Origin: a virus
IMG/VR virus record: IMGVR_UViG_3300045135_000367
Location: 1 to 28,979 of that record
DNA: 28,979 nucleotides
Strand: one strand, 5' to 3'
Part shown: in pieces, positions 2,526-9,416 of the stretch
Layout of the letters: every line of letters begins with the position of its first letter
Numbering within the stretch: position 1 is the first letter of the stretch
Made by a program: the position numbers and the translations under genes
Notes under the pieces: model-generated
The model's database searches: none
Seen by the model: the letters and a program-made list of their open reading frames with translations, nothing else
Told to the model about the DNA's origin: nothing

Positions 2526-3713
2526 CTAAGATGTTATATCTTTCACGTTCACATACTTACCAACGTCTGGCTTGGCGCGGTCGTTGTTGAGCAGACACCA
2601 CAAGATAGGCGCTGGCCACTGACCCCAACCATCGAACAACCAACCGTCAGTAAAACATATTACTGCTTGGGGCTTGATGTTGTGCTCCTGCATGTACTTG
2701 GGTACACAGTGCACTGACGTGCCACCACCACCTGCGGGCTTGGTCGATGTAACTAACTGATCGAGACCCTGTGCACTGTATCTCTCGTCTCGGCATACTT
2801 GTGTATCCCAGTACAACACACGCACAACGTCGGGGCGTACCGTGTCACATATCTTCTTGACCTCTGTCAGAAACACAGTAAGCTCACGCTGTCCGATAGA
2901 CCCCGACGTATCAATGGCAAGTACTAGCTCGTCAACCTTCTCACTGATACCACTGGGCATGTACACACCCGATGACATGAAACGTCTGTTCGGTCTAGCC
3001 CACGTAGAGTAGTCGTTACCAGAACATGTTGAGGATATGAAGTCACGTAGCACCTCACGCCAGTCAACCTGTGGCTGTAACAAGTCTTGGATATCACGGC
3101 TAACACTCTCACCCATCTTACCTGCCGCCATCGCACCCTGTCGTATCGCCTCGTCTAGGTCACGCTCAAGCTCTTGCTTATCTGTATCGGATAACTCTTG
3201 TGCACCCTCCCAGTCATGCTCGTCTAGCCCCCCGCCATCACCGCCATCACCACCGTCGTCATCGTCTTGCTGATCTGGTAGTAACTTGTATACAGCGGCA
3301 CTGTCCATGTCACGGAACTGCGGATCAATGAGCGCACCCTTGATAACTACCGCAAAGCCATCAGTGTTGTCGTCGGCAATCTTCTGGTTGATAACGTAGT
3401 CACACGCCATGTTCGCACGCTTGGCATTGTCCTCGTATAGATGTTTCCACGTAGTAAGGTGGCGGTATAGCTTGTGGTACGTCTCATGTAATACCAAGAA
3501 GCGTAGCTCCGCATCGGTCAGACCATCGACAAACGCACGTCCGTAATACTCGTCACGCCCATTGGTGTACGCAGTCGGCACGTCGTCTTTGATAGCACGC
3601 TCACCGATCATCATCACACCTGCGAGCGCCACGTACTTGGGGTTCTGCATAATGGCAATGACCGCCTTGGATAGGCGTTGCTCCGCAGTAAGTTGTTTAG
3701 CTGTCGCAAACAT
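2526..3713 (-). CDS. VWA/metallopeptidase-like protein (DUF2201 type), partner of the MoxR AAA+ ATPase
   Basis: This 395-residue protein has two parts. The N-terminal region carries LHETYHKLYRH, an intact HExxH zinc motif (H76, E77, H80), followed by MACDYVINQ with D105, as in the putative metallopeptidase domain DUF2201_N. A low-complexity Asp/Gly linker runs from about 150 to 165. The C-terminal part is a von Willebrand A-like domain with a full MIDAS: DTSGS (D268, S270, S272), GGTS (T332) and FTDG (D356). Such proteins pair with MoxR-family ATPases, as in RavA-ViaA or CobS-CobT, and the ATPase is two genes upstream. The start at 3713 has GGAGAACGACA before ATG. Whether the HExxH site cuts peptides is unknown. 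Confidence 0.9.
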   Translation of the reverse strand: MFATAKQLTAEQRLSKAVIAIMQNPKYVALAGVMMIGERAIKDDVPTAYTNGRDEYYGRAFVDGLTDAELRFLVLHETYHKLYRHLTTWKHLYEDNAKRANMACDYVINQKIADDNTDGFAVVIKGALIDPQFRDMDSAAVYKLLPDQQDDDDGGDGGDGGGLDEHDWEGAQELSDTDKQELERDLDEAIRQGAMAAGKMGESVSRDIQDLLQPQVDWREVLRDFISSTCSGNDYSTWARPNRRFMSSGVYMPSGISEKVDELVLAIDTSGSIGQRELTVFLTEVKKICDTVRPDVVRVLYWDTQVCRDERYSAQGLDQLVTSTKPAGGGGTSVHCVPKYMQEHNIKPQAVICFTDGWLFDGWGQWPAPILWCLLNNDRAKPDVGKYVNVKDITS

Positions 3714-3960: not shown

Positions 3961-5052
3961 TTACACCTTGTCAGCAGTAAACATATAGTTGTTGTCACGT
4001 GCCCACTCGGTGAACTTCTTGTTAGTCATCACGATGTCACGCTTGCTGTACTTGGGTGCACGTACACCGTTAGCAAACAGACCTTGTGCTTCCTTGTCGA
4101 GTCGGTTGAGGTATGTCATGCACGAGTCAACCCAGTCACGCTCAAGTACAGATAACAACTTATACACAACCATACACACTGCACTGGCAGACGTAGGCAA
4201 TGTCGCACTTGTCGGGTCTTGCTTGATAGACTCAAGGCTTGGTAGCTGATTCGCTAGCTTGACAAACGCCATCAGATCAAGCGCACCGCGATCACCGATA
4301 GTACCCATCAGTAAACTTGTTAGAGTCTGGTCATCGAACGATGACTGCTCGTGCAACCAGTCGCTTGCCGCTTCCAAAGACCGAGGTGTCACAAACGCCG
4401 CCCGTGGTACTTGTGGGTGGAATATGTATGGGTTCTCGTCTGGGTCGCGCACGTCCTCGAATGACTGCATCACTTGTGGATTCTCACGTACCCAACCAAG
4501 CACTGTCGGGTGTACACTGTTGTTGATCCCCCAGTCGATCCACTCATCAGCCGTAGGCTTGCGTGACGTAACCACTGTGATTCTGTTGCGAGCATGCGCA
4601 GGTAACAGGTCGCCCACACCCTCAGCCCCGAGGTTAGTTGTAGCAAACACAATACTGTCAGGGTGCAGGGTGTAGCTCCCGATCTTGCGCTCTAACATCA
4701 GACGTAGCAGGGCGTTCTTCACCGCAGGGTTAGCCTTACCGTACTCGTCAACCATCAGTATCACAGGCACGTCGTGGTGTGCACCTAGCTCCTCGTTAGT
4801 CAGGTATGTCACGTAACCTGTACCGTCATCGAGCTTGGCAAGGTTAGGCACAGTAATGTCACCCAAGTCCTTAGTGGTACAGTCGAGGTAGCATGGTATG
4901 TGACTCGGCAACTCTTGGGCTAAGCTGTTGAGCATACTACTCTTGCCTGTACCCATGTGCCCTTGGACAAGTATTGTCCGCTTGTGACCACCAACAAGTA
5001 TGGCGTTAGTGATCTGGTCTAAACCTAGTGCGTACATTTGTTGTGCGTTCAT
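3961..5052 (-). CDS. MoxR/CobS-type AAA+ ATPase
   Basis: This 363-residue protein has a complete AAA+ core: Walker A GHMGTGKS (31-38), Walker B VILMVDE (D102, E103), sensor-1 ATTN (N140) and candidate arginine fingers in PAHARNRI (R155, R157). The short N terminus and the order of motifs fit the MoxR/CobS clade, whose hexamers remodel protein partners and are usually paired with VWA proteins. A small Cys protein and the VWA/HExxH protein follow at once, and a DUF3150-like gene precedes it. It is named cobS-like in some phages, but nothing here points to cobalamin synthesis. The start at 5052 has GGAGAACGACA. A 17-bp palindrome lies 30 bases upstream. Confidence 0.92.
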   Translation of the reverse strand: MNAQQMYALGLDQITNAILVGGHKRTILVQGHMGTGKSSMLNSLAQELPSHIPCYLDCTTKDLGDITVPNLAKLDDGTGYVTYLTNEELGAHHDVPVILMVDEYGKANPAVKNALLRLMLERKIGSYTLHPDSIVFATTNLGAEGVGDLLPAHARNRITVVTSRKPTADEWIDWGINNSVHPTVLGWVRENPQVMQSFEDVRDPDENPYIFHPQVPRAAFVTPRSLEAASDWLHEQSSFDDQTLTSLLMGTIGDRGALDLMAFVKLANQLPSLESIKQDPTSATLPTSASAVCMVVYKLLSVLERDWVDSCMTYLNRLDKEAQGLFANGVRAPKYSKRDIVMTNKKFTEWARDNNYMFTADKV

Positions 5053-5081: not shown

Positions 5082-5098
5082 TCTATACACTGTATAGA
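5082..5098. promoter_or_regulatory. palindromic site 1 (TCTATACA-C-TGTATAGA)
   Basis: This is a perfect 8-bp inverted repeat around one central base, in the 67-bp gap between the DUF3150-like and AAA+ genes. On the minus strand it is followed by AAACAAC and then GGAGAACGACA before the start codon at 5052. It may be an operator for a dimeric regulator or an RNA hairpin. Confidence 0.8.
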
Positions 5099-5119
5099 AG
5101 TGTATATACGTAGTTGTTG

Positions 5120-6040
5120 TTACATGTCCAAGGACGGTAGTTGTACAGACTTAAGTGCAGTTTGCACTGCGGTTCTAGTTTCGGCACGCAGACCTGCGTC
5201 TTCTTTGAGACCCTCGGTCGTCACACCACGGAACGCGTCTTCAAGTTGCACGCGCAGTGTTTCCATCTGGCTGTCGTTTGTAATGTTGCACGTACGTAGC
5301 ATGTCGATCATATCCAACACCTTGTCAAACGTACTCTCGTGTAGCCGCTTGCGTGTCTCGCCCTCGTTCCAGTCGATTCGCTCACACAAAGTAGTCAGTG
5401 CGTCATAGGTGCGTTGCCATACATCACGCATACTTGTTTCTAGGAAACGGTTGTACGTATCTGCATAGTGGTTCTGCAACACCTGCTTCTGCTCGTTACC
5501 GATGTCAATACGGAAGTCACCGCTCTCAGGCAGTGGTATGTAGTTGATACGGAAGTCAAACCTACCACGCAAACTGTCTACCGTAGGATAGTCATCGGCA
5601 TTGAACAGGTCACCGAGTGCGATCTGAGCACGTGATATAGCCCATGTGTACTCACGCAAGAAGTCGTCAACCAGTCGGTCAAACTCGTTACGCAGTGCTG
5701 TGATCTGCTCGCTGTACTTGAAGTACTGTTGTGTTGGTAGCAAGCGCAGACCTGTATCTGACCACGGCATTGTCATGGCATAGTGAGACTGTCGCACCTG
5801 CGCTACAAACTTACCGATGGCGATCAGCTCTTGGCACTCTGCCAGTAACAACTTATTTACAGACGCGGCACCGCGCTTGGCATGGGCGTCACTTGCTACC
5901 TGATCACTGGCACGCTTGTCTTTCTTACGCCCCGCCCACTGGCTGATTGATAACTCGCACAGCATCGCGCTTGATGCGATAGACGGTGCACTCACTTGGC
6001 TTGCTTGGTTGTGCAGTTGTAATACGTTAGATGTTTCCAT
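5120..6040 (-). CDS. DUF3150-like protein, first gene of the MoxR-VWA operon
   Basis: I start this 306-residue protein at 6040 (METSNVLQLHNQ) because GGAGAACGAC lies directly upstream. The open frame extends to 6052, but that Met falls inside the leader. The protein is soluble and mostly helical, with an N-terminal WAGRKKDKRAS, a central MPWSDTGLRLLP followed by a helical TALRNEFDRLVDDFLREY, and a long helical C-terminal part. The LPW...RLLP-type centre and its place beside MoxR and VWA genes fit DUF3150, a family of unknown function seen in such clusters. That match is from memory and not searched. It is the promoter-proximal gene of the operon driven from 6182-6210. Confidence 0.75.
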   Translation of the reverse strand: METSNVLQLHNQASQVSAPSIASSAMLCELSISQWAGRKKDKRASDQVASDAHAKRGAASVNKLLLAECQELIAIGKFVAQVRQSHYAMTMPWSDTGLRLLPTQQYFKYSEQITALRNEFDRLVDDFLREYTWAISRAQIALGDLFNADDYPTVDSLRGRFDFRINYIPLPESGDFRIDIGNEQKQVLQNHYADTYNRFLETSMRDVWQRTYDALTTLCERIDWNEGETRKRLHESTFDKVLDMIDMLRTCNITNDSQMETLRVQLEDAFRGVTTEGLKEDAGLRAETRTAVQTALKSVQLPSLDM

Positions 6041-6066
6041 GTCGTTCTCCATTTATGAATGTTGTT

Positions 6067-6083
6067 TCTATACACTGTATAGA
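6067..6083. promoter_or_regulatory. palindromic site 2 (TCTATACA-C-TGTATAGA)
   Basis: This site is identical in sequence to the one at 5082. It lies in the leader of the DUF3150-MoxR-VWA operon, about 95 bases downstream of the predicted start of transcription and 27 bases upstream of the ATG at 6040. Confidence 0.8.
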
Positions 6084-6121
6084 TTTGGCTTGTCTCGTCA
6101 GTGCGCTGGGAGCCACCCACA

Positions 6122-6169
6122 CGCAGACCCCCCGAAGGGGGTTTCGACATTCGCAGTTGGAGTTCTGCG
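6122..6169 (-). promoter_or_regulatory. structured 5' leader with alternative pairings
   Basis: Read on the minus strand, CGCAGA (6164-6169) begins about six bases after the predicted transcription start. Its CGCAG can pair with CTGCG (6152-6156), and the full CGCAGA can pair with TCTGCG (6122-6127). The latter closes a stem that contains ACCCCC-UUCG-GGGGGU (about 6129-6144). The two pairings exclude each other. There is no U-tract, so a simple terminator is unlikely. A switchable leader for the MoxR operon is an inference. Confidence 0.45.
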
Positions 6170-6181
6170 ATTTGAATGAAC

Positions 6182-6210
6182 ATTATACCATACATGTTAC
6201 CATATGTCAA
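6182..6210 (-). promoter_or_regulatory. consensus sigma-70 promoter for the MoxR-VWA operon
   Basis: On the minus strand, TTGACA (6205-6210) is followed by a 17-base spacer and TATAAT (6182-6187), a perfect match to the bacterial consensus. Transcription would begin near 6175. The -10 box runs directly into GTTC, forming a copy of AATGTTC, the motif repeated in the intergenic region 7887-8294, so a regulator that binds that motif could act here. Confidence 0.85.
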
Positions 6211-6226
6211 GTGATACAAAGTTAAC

Positions 6227-6382
6227 TCACTTCTCGATACTTTCTGATACTTCTAACACGTTCTGTAGTTTAGTCAGTTTGTCCTGCACTGCCGCAAGGC
6301 TTACCGCTAAGTCGTCCGCCTCGTCCATAAGGCACGCTATGTCCATAGCTATGTCGTTTACTGCCTCTTTTATCTCATTCAT
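6227..6382 (-). CDS. 51-residue helical protein
   Basis: This short gene starts at 6382 with MNEIKEAVNDIAMDIACLMDEADD and ends SESIEK. GGAG lies seven bases before the ATG, and the start overlaps the stop of the upstream gene as ATGA, which indicates translational coupling. The residues repeat in a leucine/alanine heptad-like pattern (LAVSLAAVQDKLTKLQNVL), suggesting one amphipathic or coiled-coil helix. The promoter for the next operon begins 17 bases after its stop. No function is recognised. Confidence 0.7.
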   Translation of the reverse strand: MNEIKEAVNDIAMDIACLMDEADDLAVSLAAVQDKLTKLQNVLEVSESIEK

Positions 6383-6579
6383 AACGCACTCCAGCACCCA
6401 GTCCATTCTCGATAGTGTCTCTGGCGGTCAAGTTTCAGTGGCACCTCGACTGCCTTGCCGTTACCTATCACCGTACGTGTGACGTAGATCTTGCCCCGCT
6501 CCAGTGGTATTGATAGTGTTTGTCGGTCAGTAGCGCGGATCTTCTCCGCGCCGTGTACCTTTGCTATATAGAAGTTCAT
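6379..6579 (-). CDS. 66-residue hypothetical protein
   Basis: I start this gene at 6579 (MNFYIAKVHGAEKIRATDRQ), where GGAGG lies eight bases upstream. The frame is open further, but that extension covers the end of the zinc-ribbon gene. The start overlaps the upstream stop as TAATG, and its own stop overlaps the next start as ATGA, so three small genes form a tightly coupled chain. The protein is basic and beta-rich (LERGKIYVTRTVIGNGKAVEV) with no known motif. Confidence 0.7.
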   Translation of the reverse strand: MNFYIAKVHGAEKIRATDRQTLSIPLERGKIYVTRTVIGNGKAVEVPLKLDRQRHYREWTGCWSAL

Positions 6580-6743
6580 TACACGTCCTCCATAATCGGT
6601 TCTTCTTCTGAGTCGCACTTCTCGCAATAGGCTTCATCGTCTGCTTCTACAGCCTTGAAGTTCTGAGACCTAAAATCCCACGCAACATACCCTCGCCAGA
6701 TCAAGTCCTCGTTGCCACACTCTCTGCATGTATATTTTTTCAT
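6579..6743 (-). CDS. 54-residue zinc-ribbon protein
   Basis: This small gene starts at 6743 with MKKYTCRECGNEDLIWRGY. It has two CxxC knuckles, C6-x2-C9 and C40-x2-C43, the pattern of a one-domain zinc ribbon. The C-terminal tail is very acidic (DSEEEPIMEDV). GGAGGT lies five bases before the ATG. It begins one base after the stop of the previous gene and overlaps the next as TAATG. Such small ribbon proteins may bind nucleic acid or host polymerase, but the target cannot be told from sequence. Confidence 0.75.
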   Translation of the reverse strand: MKKYTCRECGNEDLIWRGYVAWDFRSQNFKAVEADDEAYCEKCDSEEEPIMEDV

Positions 6744-6744
6744 G

Positions 6745-7080
6745 CTATACCTCCATACCTGCCGCTACACCACCAATGCCGTAGTACATCAGGCACACCA
6801 TGTCTTTACATGTCATAGGCATAGTCTCGCAGTGTGGGTGCAGTTGGCTCCGATGTTTTGACGTAGTGGGGCTGTACTTGTCCACGTTCTCATACCACAC
6901 GCCATCGTCCCATACAAACAGTGGCCAGTGGTTGCCGTAACTTGTTACTACGTACCTACGCAAGTGGGCTTCGGATCCTTTGTATATGTCCCTGCGCCAT
7001 ACACCCTCGGTGTTGCTCCCACTAAAAGGTTTCCGTTCCTGCACATACCGACGTGCGTCTCTGTTTGCTACTCTATCCAT
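6745..7080 (-). CDS. hypothetical phage protein with conserved aromatic core
   Basis: This 111-residue protein has a distinctive centre, RRYVVTSYGNHWPLFVWDDG, followed by KYSPTTSKHRSQLHPH. I recall this pattern (YxxHWPLFVWD then TTSKHRSQxHP) from many phage proteins of unknown function. The spaced His, Cys and Asp residues (HPHCETMPMTC) could bind a metal, but no known active site is clear. The start at 7080 has the standard GGAGAACGAC leader, with a palindrome 22 bases upstream. It heads the chain of small genes down to 6227. Confidence 0.8.
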   Translation of the reverse strand: MDRVANRDARRYVQERKPFSGSNTEGVWRRDIYKGSEAHLRRYVVTSYGNHWPLFVWDDGVWYENVDKYSPTTSKHRSQLHPHCETMPMTCKDMVCLMYYGIGGVAAGMEV

Positions 7081-7101
7081 GTCGTTCTCCTAAGTTGTTT
7101 T

Positions 7102-7118
7102 TCTATACGCTGTATAGA
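7102..7118. promoter_or_regulatory. palindromic site 3, one arm altered (TCTATACG-C-TGTATAGA)
   Basis: This is the same element as sites 1 and 2, with one mismatch in the left arm (G for A). It sits in the 45-bp gap between two small genes and is followed on the minus strand by AAACAAC and the GGAGAACGAC leader of the gene at 7080. Confidence 0.75.
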
Positions 7119-7125
7119 TTTGTGA

Positions 7126-7455
7126 CTACTCTTCCTCGTCAATTATCCGCCAAAAACCAAAGTCGCTACCGTCACCGTAGTGGGCACCGAAATAGAACCC
7201 ATCGGGCGCGTAGTCGTTCAGCACCTCGTCTAGCTGTTCTAGCACCCAGTAAGCGTTTTCGGAGTACCACCACTCGTGGTCGTCGTCTTCTTGGGCGTAT
7301 TGCGGCACGCACGGATGCATACCCATAGTCATCTGCTCATACACCGCAGGTGCTAAGTGACTGACCGCTTCTAAAAACGCAGGGATCAGGTCTTGGTTAC
7401 GCAGTGTTGCACGTGACACACTTACTTCTACTGGAAACTTGTTTGTGGCTTTCAT
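7126..7455 (-). CDS. hypothetical acidic phage protein
   Basis: This is a 109-residue protein starting MKATNKFPVEVSVSRATL and ending in an acidic DEEE. The C-terminal part, LDEVLNDYAPDGFYFGAH then GDGSDFGFW, resembles a phage family I have seen without function. It has many aromatic residues (EWWYSENAYW). The start at 7455 has AGGAGAACGAC. A second copy of this initiation region, with the start codon changed to ATA, lies just upstream (7467-7494). No signal, membrane segment or catalytic motif is seen. Confidence 0.8.
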   Translation of the reverse strand: MKATNKFPVEVSVSRATLRNQDLIPAFLEAVSHLAPAVYEQMTMGMHPCVPQYAQEDDDHEWWYSENAYWVLEQLDEVLNDYAPDGFYFGAHYGDGSDFGFWRIIDEEE

Positions 7456-7494
7456 GTCGTTCTCCTGTTGTTTGCGGCTTTTATGTCGTTCTCC
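7438..7494 (-). repeat. 29-bp tandem duplication of a translation initiation region
   Basis: The stretch 7439-7465, covering GGAGAACGACATG and the first codons of the 7455 gene, is repeated at 7468-7494 with two mismatches in 27 bases. In the upstream copy the start codon reads ATA. The intact copy is the used start. Confidence 0.85.
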
Positions 7495-7502
7495 GTTGGT
7501 TG

Positions 7503-7715
7503 TTACTTAGCTAGGATTATGGCTATTTCTAGTCCGTCGATTTTGCCTTGGAAATACCCGACCATGTTTAAGGCATGTTCGTATTCTGGTGTGCCTTCGG
7601 GCAGTTCGAGTTGGTTTTCGTAATACTCTTTACGCACCTGCGCAGTGCCTAGCTGTGAATTCAGCAGGTCAATAATAACGCGCTTTTTGGTCTCTACCAT
7701 TGTGTAGTCTTTCAT
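7503..7715 (-). CDS. 70-residue hypothetical protein
   Basis: I start this gene at 7715 (MKDYTMVETKKRVIIDLLNS), which has the standard GGAGAACGAC leader. The frame is open to 7808, but that extension would translate the palindrome at 7741-7757 and is not credible. The protein is helical and charged (VRKEYYENQLELPEG) and ends IDGLEIAIILAK. It is the first gene after the promoter at 7820-7848. A seven-codon reading frame ending on its start codon lies in the leader (7712-7735). No family is recognised. Confidence 0.75.
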   Translation of the reverse strand: MKDYTMVETKKRVIIDLLNSQLGTAQVRKEYYENQLELPEGTPEYEHALNMVGYFQGKIDGLEIAIILAK

Positions 7716-7740
7716 GTCGTTCTCCGTTGTTTCATGTCGT

Positions 7741-7757
7741 TCTATACACTGTATAGA
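7741..7757. promoter_or_regulatory. palindromic site 4 (TCTATACA-C-TGTATAGA)
   Basis: A perfect copy in the leader of the gene at 7715, about 60 bases downstream of the predicted transcription start and 26 bases upstream of the ATG. On the minus strand it is followed by ACGACATG and AAACAAC before the real GGAG leader. Confidence 0.8.
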
Positions 7758-7819
7758 TTTTTGGTGGTGTATCTTAGCACCTTTGCTTTTGTAAGCGGTT
7801 TGTCCCACTCACAGGAAAC

Positions 7820-7848
7820 AGTATACCACAAGTATCATACAATGTCAA
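7820..7848 (-). promoter_or_regulatory. near-consensus sigma-70 promoter for the small-gene operon
   Basis: On the minus strand, TTGACA (7843-7848), a 17-base spacer and TATACT (7820-7825) lie about 100 bases before the gene at 7715. The spacer and flanks resemble the promoter at 6182-6210 (both have ATCACTTGACA), so the two are probably related copies. Confidence 0.85.
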
Positions 7849-7886
7849 GTGATTGTAAATGGTGGTAAATAGTAGGCTATAGGTAT

Positions 7887-8294
7887 AATGTTCTGTTGTT
7901 TTGTGTAATGTACGGTAAATGTTCTGTTGTGAGGGTTTGTAAGTCATTGATTTTTAATAATGTTCTTAAAGTTTGCGAACATTAGGGGTATATGGGGGAT
8001 TTGGCTTTTTTACTGCTTGCACAAAACATGTTTTTTCTAACGGTAAATGGAAAAGCTAAGGAGGGTATACTATATAAAAAACGAACATTATATATATATA
8101 TACTTATTTTACTCTATTTTTCTATAACTACAGCTCGGTGCATAACACCACTTGTCACTATTTGTCACTAAACTCAAATGTACGTTTTTCAAATCAAAAA
8201 ACGAACATTACACCCCCCAAAAACGAACATTGCTTTAAAATCAATGACTTACAAAGGGGGTTTTGTTCGCTTTTTTTCGAGCAGACCGAACATT
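7887..8294. repeat. iteron-like GAACATT/AATGTTC repeats
   Basis: AATGTTC occurs at 7887, 7918 and 7959, and its complement GAACATT at 7977, 8083, 8203, 8225 and 8288. The first two copies are extended to AATGTTCTGTTGT and lie 31 bp apart. Three of the later ones share AAAACGAACATT. The pair at 7959 and 7977 forms an inverted repeat. A further copy overlaps the -10 box at 6182-6187. Confidence 0.7.
7936..8255. repeat. 19-bp inverted repeat enclosing about 280 bp
   Basis: TTTGTAAGTCATTGATTTT at 7936-7954 is exactly complementary to 8237-8255. Just inside each arm lies a GAACATT-type element at nearly equal distance (7959 and 8225), which extends the symmetry. The arms could form a cruciform or define the ends of a replication or recombination element. 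Confidence 0.8.
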
Positions 8295-8302
8295 GTACGA
8301 TT

Positions 8303-8319
8303 TCTATACAGTGTATAGA
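8303..8319. promoter_or_regulatory. palindromic site 5 (TCTATACA-G-TGTATAGA)
   Basis: A perfect inverted repeat with G as the central base. Unlike sites 1 to 4, it is not followed by a gene and lies between a terminator (8480) and the promoter at 7820, in DNA that is probably not transcribed on the minus strand. This favours protein binding to DNA over an RNA role. Confidence 0.8.
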
Positions 8320-8325
8320 TTTACG

Positions 8326-8465
8326 CGGTGCGCCACGCTTCTGCTTGTAACTGGTTTCAGTGAAAGATGTAATGCTCAACGCTGCTCCATGTAACTGGTT
8401 TCTATACACTGTATAGAATTTAAACTCGTGCTCGGTGCGCCACGCTGCTCCATGTAACTGGTTTC
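8326..8465. repeat. three imperfect copies of a 33-bp unit interleaved with palindromic sites
   Basis: The unit CGGTGCGCCACGCT plus TAACTGGTTTC occurs at 8326-8358 and 8433-8465, with a shortened copy at 8377-8402 that keeps CGCTGCTCCATGTAACTGG. The copies alternate with palindromic sites at 8303 and 8401, as if a segment made of palindrome plus unit had been duplicated. Confidence 0.75.
8401..8417. promoter_or_regulatory. palindromic site 6 (TCTATACA-C-TGTATAGA)
   Basis: A perfect copy with one more matching base pair on each side (8400-8418). It lies in the gene-free region, 84 bp from the centre-shifted copy at 8303, with shared sequence around both. Confidence 0.8.
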
Positions 8466-8479
8466 ATTTTTTCGAGACG

Positions 8480-8503
8480 AAAAAAAGCCCGCCGAAGCGG
8501 GCT
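8480..8503 (-). terminator. rho-independent terminator after the 60-aa gene
   Basis: On the minus strand AGCCCGC-TTCG-GCGGGCT (8486-8503) forms a seven-pair stem with a UUCG loop followed by a T run (8480-8486). It lies seven bases after the stop of the gene at 8510. The same hairpin recurs at 8703-8725. Confidence 0.92.
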
Positions 8504-8509
8504 AGTGGT

Positions 8510-8692
8510 TCATTCTTTTAGTTCCCATCCGCGAATGTGATGGCGTCTGTACACGGTTACACTTAAATCATTTTTAAGAGCGGTAATAGCGTGGCTAAGG
8601 TCATTTGTAACAATGTCCGAAAAACGATATACAGTAGTATCGTGCGGAAAGTCGAGCTCTATACTCTCAAAAAATTGCGCTTGTTTACCCAT
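8510..8692 (-). CDS. 60-residue hypothetical protein between two terminators
   Basis: I start this gene at 8692 (MGKQAQFFESIELDFPHD). GGAG lies seven bases upstream, while the longer frame to 8704 begins with TTG inside that GGAG context. The protein has an acidic N-terminal part and a basic end (VTVYRRHHIRGWELKE). The T run of the upstream terminator leads straight into its ribosome binding site, and an identical terminator closes it. It is therefore expressed only if RNA polymerase reads through the first terminator or starts at an unseen promoter. No family is recognised. Confidence 0.7.
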   Translation of the reverse strand: MGKQAQFFESIELDFPHDTTVYRFSDIVTNDLSHAITALKNDLSVTVYRRHHIRGWELKE

Positions 8693-8702
8693 AATATTCT
8701 CC

Positions 8703-8725
8703 AAAAAAGCCCGCCGAAGCGGGCT
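8703..8725 (-). terminator. rho-independent terminator after the 183-aa gene, abutting the next ribosome site
   Basis: On the minus strand AGCCCGC-TTCG-GCGGGCT (8708-8725) is followed by TTTTTT (8703-8708) and at once by GGAG of the 60-residue gene. It is placed five bases after the TAA of the 183-residue gene. Confidence 0.92.
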
Positions 8726-8730
8726 GTGTA

Positions 8731-9282
8731 TTACTTGCTGTCAGGGTCTTTGAATTGTTGGCCCGTGATTGCCTTGTACTCGTTTTTGAGATTGACAATG
8801 TGCTCACTTAGTCGGTATCCACTAGGCAAGCCAGTGAGCTTCTCAGCGCCTAGGGCATTGATCGCTCTGGCCAGTGCATCGCCTACCTTGTGAGCGGTAG
8901 TCTTGGCCACCTTTTCAGGCTTGCTAGGCGCTTGTATATCGTCCAAGTACTTGCCAAGTCTGACTCGGTAGACCCCGACTCGTTTCTGAGCGGTTGCCGC
9001 GAATTGCTTGTCGTTGTCAGACCGAGCCTTGGCAGGTTTAGCCAGAGCCGTTTGCATTCGAGCAGGCAAGCCAGCGATTATGAGCGCACTCAATTGCTTG
9101 TGGCTCGCCTTATCCTCACCGTAAGGCATACGGATCAACTCAGGCGTGAATCCTAGCTTATCCCATACCGCGGCGGTCTTAGTCCAAGCGTTATTGTCAG
9201 TCTCACCCGCGCTTACCGCAGTAGCTAACACCTTTTGAGCGGTTGCTGGTACGCTCACACCATACAAAGTAACAGTAGACAT
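8731..9282 (-). CDS. unknown 183-residue basic protein
   Basis: I start this gene at 9282 (MSTVTLYGVSVPATAQKVL), where GGAG lies nine bases upstream. The frame extends to 9336, but that part is leader sequence. The protein is rich in Ala and Lys (AKPAKARSDNDKQFAATAQKR, KPEKVAKTTAHK) with long helices and no signal or membrane segment. A nucleic-acid-binding role is possible from the charge, but there is no recognised motif. It is the first minus-strand gene beside the divergent junction with the terminase genes, a common position for early regulators. That is context, not proof. Confidence 0.8.
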   Translation of the reverse strand: MSTVTLYGVSVPATAQKVLATAVSAGETDNNAWTKTAAVWDKLGFTPELIRMPYGEDKASHKQLSALIIAGLPARMQTALAKPAKARSDNDKQFAATAQKRVGVYRVRLGKYLDDIQAPSKPEKVAKTTAHKVGDALARAINALGAEKLTGLPSGYRLSEHIVNLKNEYKAITGQQFKDPDSK

Positions 9283-9288
9283 AATCAT

Positions 9289-9306
9289 TTCTCCATTTAT
9301 GAATGT
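9289..9306 (-). repeat. 18-bp leader sequence shared with 6045-6062
   Basis: On the minus strand ACATTCATAAATGGAGAA lies in the leader of the 9282 gene and is found identically in the leader of the 6040 gene (6045-6062). It includes the ribosome binding site in both, so it is either a copied leader or a shared regulatory sequence. Confidence 0.8.
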
Positions 9307-9393
9307 CATGTGCGTTCGGCGGTATTGCCTCGGCACACCTTTATAATCTCACAGAAACTCGTTTATGCAAGATAATTTCCGGTAATAGATACC

Positions 9394-9416
9394 AATTCTA
9401 TACACTGTATAGAATT
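9394..9416. promoter_or_regulatory. palindromic site 7, extended to 23 bp
   Basis: This is the longest copy of the element: the 17-bp core at 9397-9413 is extended by AAT and ATT to eleven paired bases on each side of a central C. It lies between the divergent early and late arms, the usual position of a master operator. Confidence 0.8.

Follow-up and report, generated by a model that had tools for sequence, protein, structure and literature searches.

What is the role of seven nearly identical palindromes that lie within the early region of a virus? The question is raised by the IMG/VR record IMGVR_UViG_3300045135_000367, whose whole length of 28,979 bases is the window analysed here and which is a fragment of a podovirus-like marine phage. 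The window carries TCTATAC-N3-GTATAGA seven times between 5082 and 9413, and a scan allowing up to 3 mismatches found none elsewhere in it. Very probably, to judge from the sequences compared below, the protein product of the first early gene binds the DNA at these palindromes. We consider it likely that they are dispersed operators bound by a dimer of this protein (8731-9282, minus strand), with the blocking of early transcription as the most likely outcome.

An earlier sequence-only reading had listed seven sites, and our re-scan returned exactly seven at the same coordinates, where dinucleotide shuffles give an expectation of 0.15 matches to the TCTATACANTGTATAGA motif in the window. The same reading counted six perfect copies and one with a single mismatch; the mismatch lies in copy 7102, at the eighth pair, and the 7-bp arms TCTATAC/GTATAGA are perfect in 7/7 copies. 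On the minus strand, the centre reads AGT in five copies, ACT in one and AGC in one. The copies are as follows, with distances in nucleotides (nt).

5082..5098, minus strand: putative operator copy, 29 nt ahead of the MoxR-like ATPase gene start (5052)
6067..6083, minus strand: putative operator copy, 26 nt ahead of the 306-residue protein gene start (6040); 3' of a 12/12 sigma-70 promoter and a hammerhead-like leader
7102..7118, minus strand: putative operator copy, centre AGC, 21 nt ahead of the start at 7080
7741..7757, minus strand: putative operator copy, 27 nt ahead of the start at 7713; the -35 box of an upstream 11/12 sigma-70 promoter begins 91 nt earlier
8303..8319, minus strand: putative operator copy in the noncoding early region, behind the terminator at 8503-8486
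8401..8417, minus strand: putative operator copy in the noncoding early region, behind the same terminator
9397..9413, minus strand: putative operator copy, 114 nt upstream of the start of the candidate regulator gene (8731-9282)

On the minus strand, AAACAAC and GGAGAACGAC come after four of the copies; these four end 21-29 nt upstream of the starts at 5052, 6040, 7080 and 7713. The palindrome, spacer word and ribosome site had been described as a cassette. This succession stands for the four copies, but it is not one fixed cassette, since GGAGAACGACATG also precedes palindrome-free genes: within two mismatches it occurs 11 times in the window, some of them ahead of such genes (for example 2497 and 7453). 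GGAGAACGACATG is a ribosome-site habit of the phage and is not tied to the palindromes. Three copies had also been described as not near a downstream gene. A terminator does precede copies 8401 and 8303, but 9397 precedes the gene of the 183-residue protein.

The arrangement is not confined to the window. A census of repeated palindromes covered 67 ATPase-encoding loci and the window, and 58 of these 68 sequences contain one, at corresponding gene boundaries. The arm is fixed inside each phage and differs between phages, changing symmetrically, and the sequence of the centre is free. Arm types across the relatives include GTTAGTC, GTTAGTG, GTTAGGC, GTTAGGG, GTTATAC, GTTATGC, GTAGGGG, GTTATCA and others. 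Examples are L076 with GTTAGGC, L074 with GTTATAC, L058 with TGTAGTC, L061 with GTTAGGG and L041 with GTTAGTG. A relative usually has 5-14 copies; in the larger records they occupy the early region only, with none in the late region. The test proposed earlier, a search for the motif at background frequency in relatives, thus leaves the idea of a binding site intact: the relatives hold the arrangement in other letters. If the family had arisen by chance or were a mobile or selfish repeat, and regulated nothing, the dispersal of the copies and the swapping of site types between near relatives might be explained. Such a repeat would not be expected at the same gene boundaries in deeply divergent phages, in different letters and in the early region only, at a copy number far above chance and in covariation with a protein residue, and we give this explanation almost no weight.

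The exact window motif has matches elsewhere in IMG/VR, each with a single copy. No repeat was seen in the stretches read of named phages with a related portal (HTVC023P, CRP-902, 023Pt_psg01, RW and DSL-LC04), and a search of the literature on lytic marine phages whose early genes carry palindromic operators turned up no account of this system. Two contigs, L043 and L046, have two palindrome types each, GTTAGTC up to the ATPase gene and GTTATGC past it, which may reflect either recombination between specificities or an assembly chimera. The GTTAGGG palindrome occurs in G007 (the L076 record) at 31257 and in L308, where the other sites are GTTAGGC. An asymmetry of the flanks (A after the 3' arm in 206/258 copies, 147/258 on the other side) was considered as a sign of directionality, but upstream and downstream sequence differ in base composition by enough to account for it.

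A palindrome before a gene can act as DNA or as RNA. Leader hairpins controlling translation, stability or processing would fit the 7-bp stem and its short loop, of variable length within one phage, the many copies directly before a ribosome site, and the location of promoter-linked copies within the leader. To separate the two, 33 non-redundant copies with a single arm mismatch were classed by pairing on the sense strand. Just 9/33 give G.U, 4/33 give A.C and 20/33 give neither, so that 24/33 break the pair; the mismatches cluster at half-site position 6 (19/33). In L050 and L277 the half-sites are GTTAGYC; both contigs have C.A oppositions, and L050 has T.G as well. This pattern is half-site degeneracy and not stem conservation. 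Arms are identical inside a phage, with no compensated variation, the first copy can lie upstream of the first early promoter, and the arm sequence tracks a protein residue. The preference for a DNA-binding dimer over an RNA hairpin, already voiced in the sequence-only reading, is therefore strengthened, because the half-site is fixed and the centre free, the arms change symmetrically, the mismatches mostly break the stem, and the arms covary with one protein residue. We regard the hairpin explanation as very unlikely.

The regulator had been thought to lie outside the window. Most likely it is the first early gene, to judge by covariation with the sites. Three features define the candidate.

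8731..9282, minus strand: first early gene, probable palindrome reader, 183 residues, mostly helical; family without a Pfam, PHROGs or PDB match
8932..9018, minus strand: codons of a predicted long helix, residues 89-117, holding the specificity segment AATAQKRVGVYRVRLGKYL
8959..8961, minus strand: codon of Arg108, segment position 14, which tracks half-site base 7 (C in the window)

The first early gene belongs to one family in 45 loci of the ATPase set, window included. In a second locus set, the same strict census found a repeat in 40/43 family-bearing loci. The window protein is 12-22% identical to other family members, and a recognisable 19-residue segment is common to all of them (AATAQKRVGVYRVRLGKYL in the window, KRWVQQQIGSRLNRVVQHV in L076). 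A search for relatives with the window protein's own sequence gave no match, and Pfam, PHROGs and PDB held no convincing relative of the family. AlphaFold predicts helical proteins for both L076 and the window (predicted local distance difference test scores of 87 and 92.5), with a small strand pair in the window model, and places the segment in one long helix (residues 81-113 in L076, 89-117 in the window). Lying in a single helix, the segment is not a classical helix-turn-helix. Foldseek returned nothing from the PDB below E = 0.8 and, among viral structures, just a weak match. Two other candidates are less suitable: a conserved 71-residue excisionase-like helix-turn-helix protein has the same recognition region in GTTAGGG and GTTATAC phages and was rejected as the reader, and an HTH_3 repressor is present in only 2/20 records and is not conserved in the group.

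The strongest link between protein and site is a residue-base correlation. With the segment Gly numbered 9, position 14 varies with half-site base 7: across 70 proteins Asp goes with G in 31/33 and Lys or Arg with C in 34/36, with no crossovers, and Asn goes with A in one case. With one vote per clade, the association gives a Fisher p of 5.6e-6. Position 14 was the best alignment column in the first 38 proteins, at 0.915 bits against 0.511 for the next. Loci fetched after the rule was formed, through the 306-residue protein and one family member, follow it in 17/17 cases for G and 15/16 for C. In a set fetched by terminase, from which motifs of uncertain register were excluded, about 10 Asp/G groups and three Lys/C groups agree, with one Thr/C exception (about 13/14 groups). 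The column statistic reaches 0.79 in the reader family (next column 0.39), compared with best columns of 0.42, 0.49 and 0.30 in control proteins of the same phages, the ATPase, the 306-residue protein and the VWA protein. Where proteins share 60-80% identity outside the segment, identity over its eight central residues is 84% with matching arms and 45% with differing arms. Three lineages with TATAC/TATAG arms have Val or Ile at position 13 (Val107 in the window protein), but L240 (GTTATAC) has Ala there, so that a link to these arms is only hinted at. Together, the covariation argues strongly that the 183-residue protein binds the palindromes, and the symmetry of the sites points to binding as a dimer.

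What binding would do is suggested by placement. In the early regions of 58 contigs, 124 sigma-70 promoters scoring at least 10/12 were found on the gene strand. A palindrome copy lies within 160 nt downstream of the -35 box in 84/124 (22 expected), and in 50/124 it starts 70-89 nt after this box (2.5 expected), about 35-55 nt past the inferred transcription start; the contigs behind these counts are related and not fully independent. A start codon with a ribosome site follows 10-70 nt downstream in 53% of non-redundant copies, compared with 16% of random nearby positions. Some copies fall after the start codon. In a number of relatives the first early promoter is preceded by the first copy, which sits some tens of bases before the -35 box; window copy 9397 is the equivalent of this first copy. 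Two promoters of the window are linked to copies.

6182..6210, minus strand: sigma-70 promoter TTGACA-17-TATAAT, 12/12, for the 306-residue protein gene
7820..7848, minus strand: sigma-70 promoter TTGACA-17-TATACT, 11/12, ahead of copy 7741

Their distances to copies 6067 and 7741 are 127 and 91 nt, somewhat beyond the common spacing of the relatives. From the same sites, the same protein could instead activate transcription, act in antitermination, bind an origin or a partition site, or organise early DNA by bridging it. Most copies lie away from recognisable promoters, some fall within genes or share a noncoding region with other repeats, and the place of the first copy, upstream of the first promoter, is open to an activator. 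The commonest promoter-linked place, past the inferred start, fits a roadblock better than an activator, and the excess of copies before start codons also weighs against these roles. We consider these non-repressing roles improbable, yet they are the most serious competitor.

A different possibility is that the palindromes are themselves promoters of a phage RNA polymerase, for example hairpin promoters of the N4 type, which the sequence-only reading had offered as its alternative. The short stem and small loop resemble N4 early promoters, MoxR-like ATPases also occur in N4-like phages, and a virion protein of 2,000-2,300 residues is placed as the N4 virion polymerase is. No RNA_pol family match, T7-like polymerases included, was found in 20 records, though the control was silent too. 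Motif B, present in N4, is missing from the giant virion protein, whose matches are instead polyvalent proteins of the DarB-like kind. The loop is not conserved, consensus sigma-70 promoters adjoin the sites, and some copies follow a start codon. This alternative is thus highly improbable. A direct candidacy of the virion protein as an N4 virion RNA polymerase was rejected, with a profile alignment at 36% probability and motif B absent. L211 6060-12668 and its orthologues are virion proteins in this size range (2,000-2,300 residues), in which LPD39 occurs together with a C-terminal region resembling DarB.

The dispersed-operator mechanism can be put together as follows. The operators would be double-stranded DNA sites, each with two 7-base half-sites around a free spacer, occupied by a dimer of the first-early-gene protein (8731-9282, minus strand). 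The long helix would read the half-sites, and position 14 (Arg108 in the window) would read base 7. The protein would build up from the first early promoter and then fill the sites behind strong host-type sigma-70 early promoters and ahead of single early genes. There, the bound protein would most likely act as a roadblock or silencer that shuts down or balances early genes, its own gene included. Repression is the weakest step of this mechanism, and we infer it from the position of sites behind strong promoters and before genes.

Several observations weigh against this mechanism. Close to 283/376 copies there is no promoter of at least 10/12. Position 14 has exceptions (L240 Leu, L043 Gln, L073/L088 Gly/Ala and L124-type Thr), and among the seven half-site bases a candidate residue contact emerges for base 7 only. 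Related contigs are not independent, and the registers of odd motifs were set by eye. Centre length differs by 1-2 nt inside one phage in nine contigs, and such variation is unusual for a rigid dimer. The AlphaFold models are monomers only, and no known DNA-binding fold was recognised in them. Finally, the nearest relative (ATPase 96% and 306-residue protein 91% to the window) keeps the promoter and leader of the 306-residue protein gene, and has TTTAGTCCGCGGACTAGA ahead of this gene where the window has TCTATACAGTGTATAGA and ACTATACAGTGTATAGA ahead of the ATPase gene. It mixes site types, and its regulator gene lies outside its contig.

There is perhaps an even chance that these proteins form an undescribed DNA-binding class. 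Its members would read a 7-base half-site with one long helix of a helical fold, by a code that at the inner position comes close to one residue per base. In marine phages in which no integrase was detected, such proteins would control a network of dispersed operators, and close relatives would differ by joint switches of site and reader specificity. A likely role can also be given to a protein family that had none before, and the link between residue and base across about 70 relatives probably reflects a natural recognition code. More than 60 naturally matched protein-site pairs and a simple residue-base rule make the co-change of phage regulator and site specificity testable with natural variants.

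The remaining features of the window place the sites in context. Genes run leftward from 1 to 9.3 kb, and packaging and structural genes run rightward from 9.8 kb. The portal protein has 39-45% likeness to podoviruses of the Pelagibacter phage HTVC023P kind. No close ATPase relative was found among named phages, and a genome scan for the host gave no match.

2526-3713, leftward: DUF2201/VWA protein
3961-5052, leftward: MoxR-like ATPase
5120-6040, leftward: 306-residue protein
6083..6149, minus strand: hammerhead type II ribozyme match in the leader of the 306-residue protein gene, between promoter and putative operator
8486..8503, minus strand: intrinsic terminator before the noncoding early region
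8708..8725, minus strand: identical intrinsic terminator behind the regulator gene

The Rfam Hammerhead_II match at 6083-6149 scores 37.4 bits against a threshold of 37. In the nearest relative (L228 223-289) it scores 29 bits and the core CUGACGA has become UUGACGA, a change that makes activity there doubtful; 18 other loci had no match. The twin terminators (8481-8503 and 8703-8725) match in 23/23 bases and flank a 64-codon frame. In the AT-rich noncoding early region, CGAACATT has five plus-strand copies within 320 bases (7976-8294), with 0.8 expected per whole window, and this cluster is possibly an origin. Three 30-nt repeats with GAAACCAGTTACA lie on the minus strand at 8329-8465. In relatives, GAAACCAGTT or GATACCAGTT followed by GCG-rich words adjoin the palindromes.

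Three known systems invite comparison. Lambda-type CI/Cro regulators repress early genes from a few clustered 17-bp dyad operators at promoters, which are read by an HTH_3 protein. The window system shares 17-bp dyad-symmetric sites and a small early regulator, with repression here an inference, whereas its group has scattered sites and the 183-residue family has no HTH_3 match. Promoters of the N4 virion RNA polymerase have short perfect stems and small loops with a conserved base, lie ahead of early genes, and set the transcript start at a fixed distance from the hairpin. The short stem and small loop before early genes are shared; here, in contrast, there is no motif of that polymerase, the loop is free, and sigma-70 promoters are present. 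The N4 promoters can be approached through PMC4496689.

The closest likeness in layout is to the stoperators and immunity repressor of Cluster A mycobacteriophages such as L5, Bxb1 and TipsytheTRex (PMC6550527, PMC9283540). In both systems each phage repeats one site many times, at promoters and in short intergenic places, and has one reader; site specificity also shifts between related phages together with the reader, which here is seen as covariation with the candidate. The Cluster A sites are asymmetric, 13 bp long and in one orientation, whereas those described here are palindromes with a free spacer. The Cluster A repressor, which stops elongation when bound, is a monomer with an N-terminal helix-turn-helix and a stoperator domain, and the helical protein is unrelated to it by sequence and fold search. 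Cluster A phages are temperate, with an integrase or parABS. In the window group, a search that covered the integrase family PF00589 alone found it in 0/20 records, with the control positive in 14/14. The window system may be called stoperator-like in layout, and we do not class it as a Cluster A stoperator member because its sites are palindromic, its protein is unrelated and no integrase was found. Repressors with dispersed operators are known mainly from temperate mycobacteriophages, and here a comparable arrangement appears to operate through an unrelated protein in marine phages of a widespread group, in which no integrase was detected.

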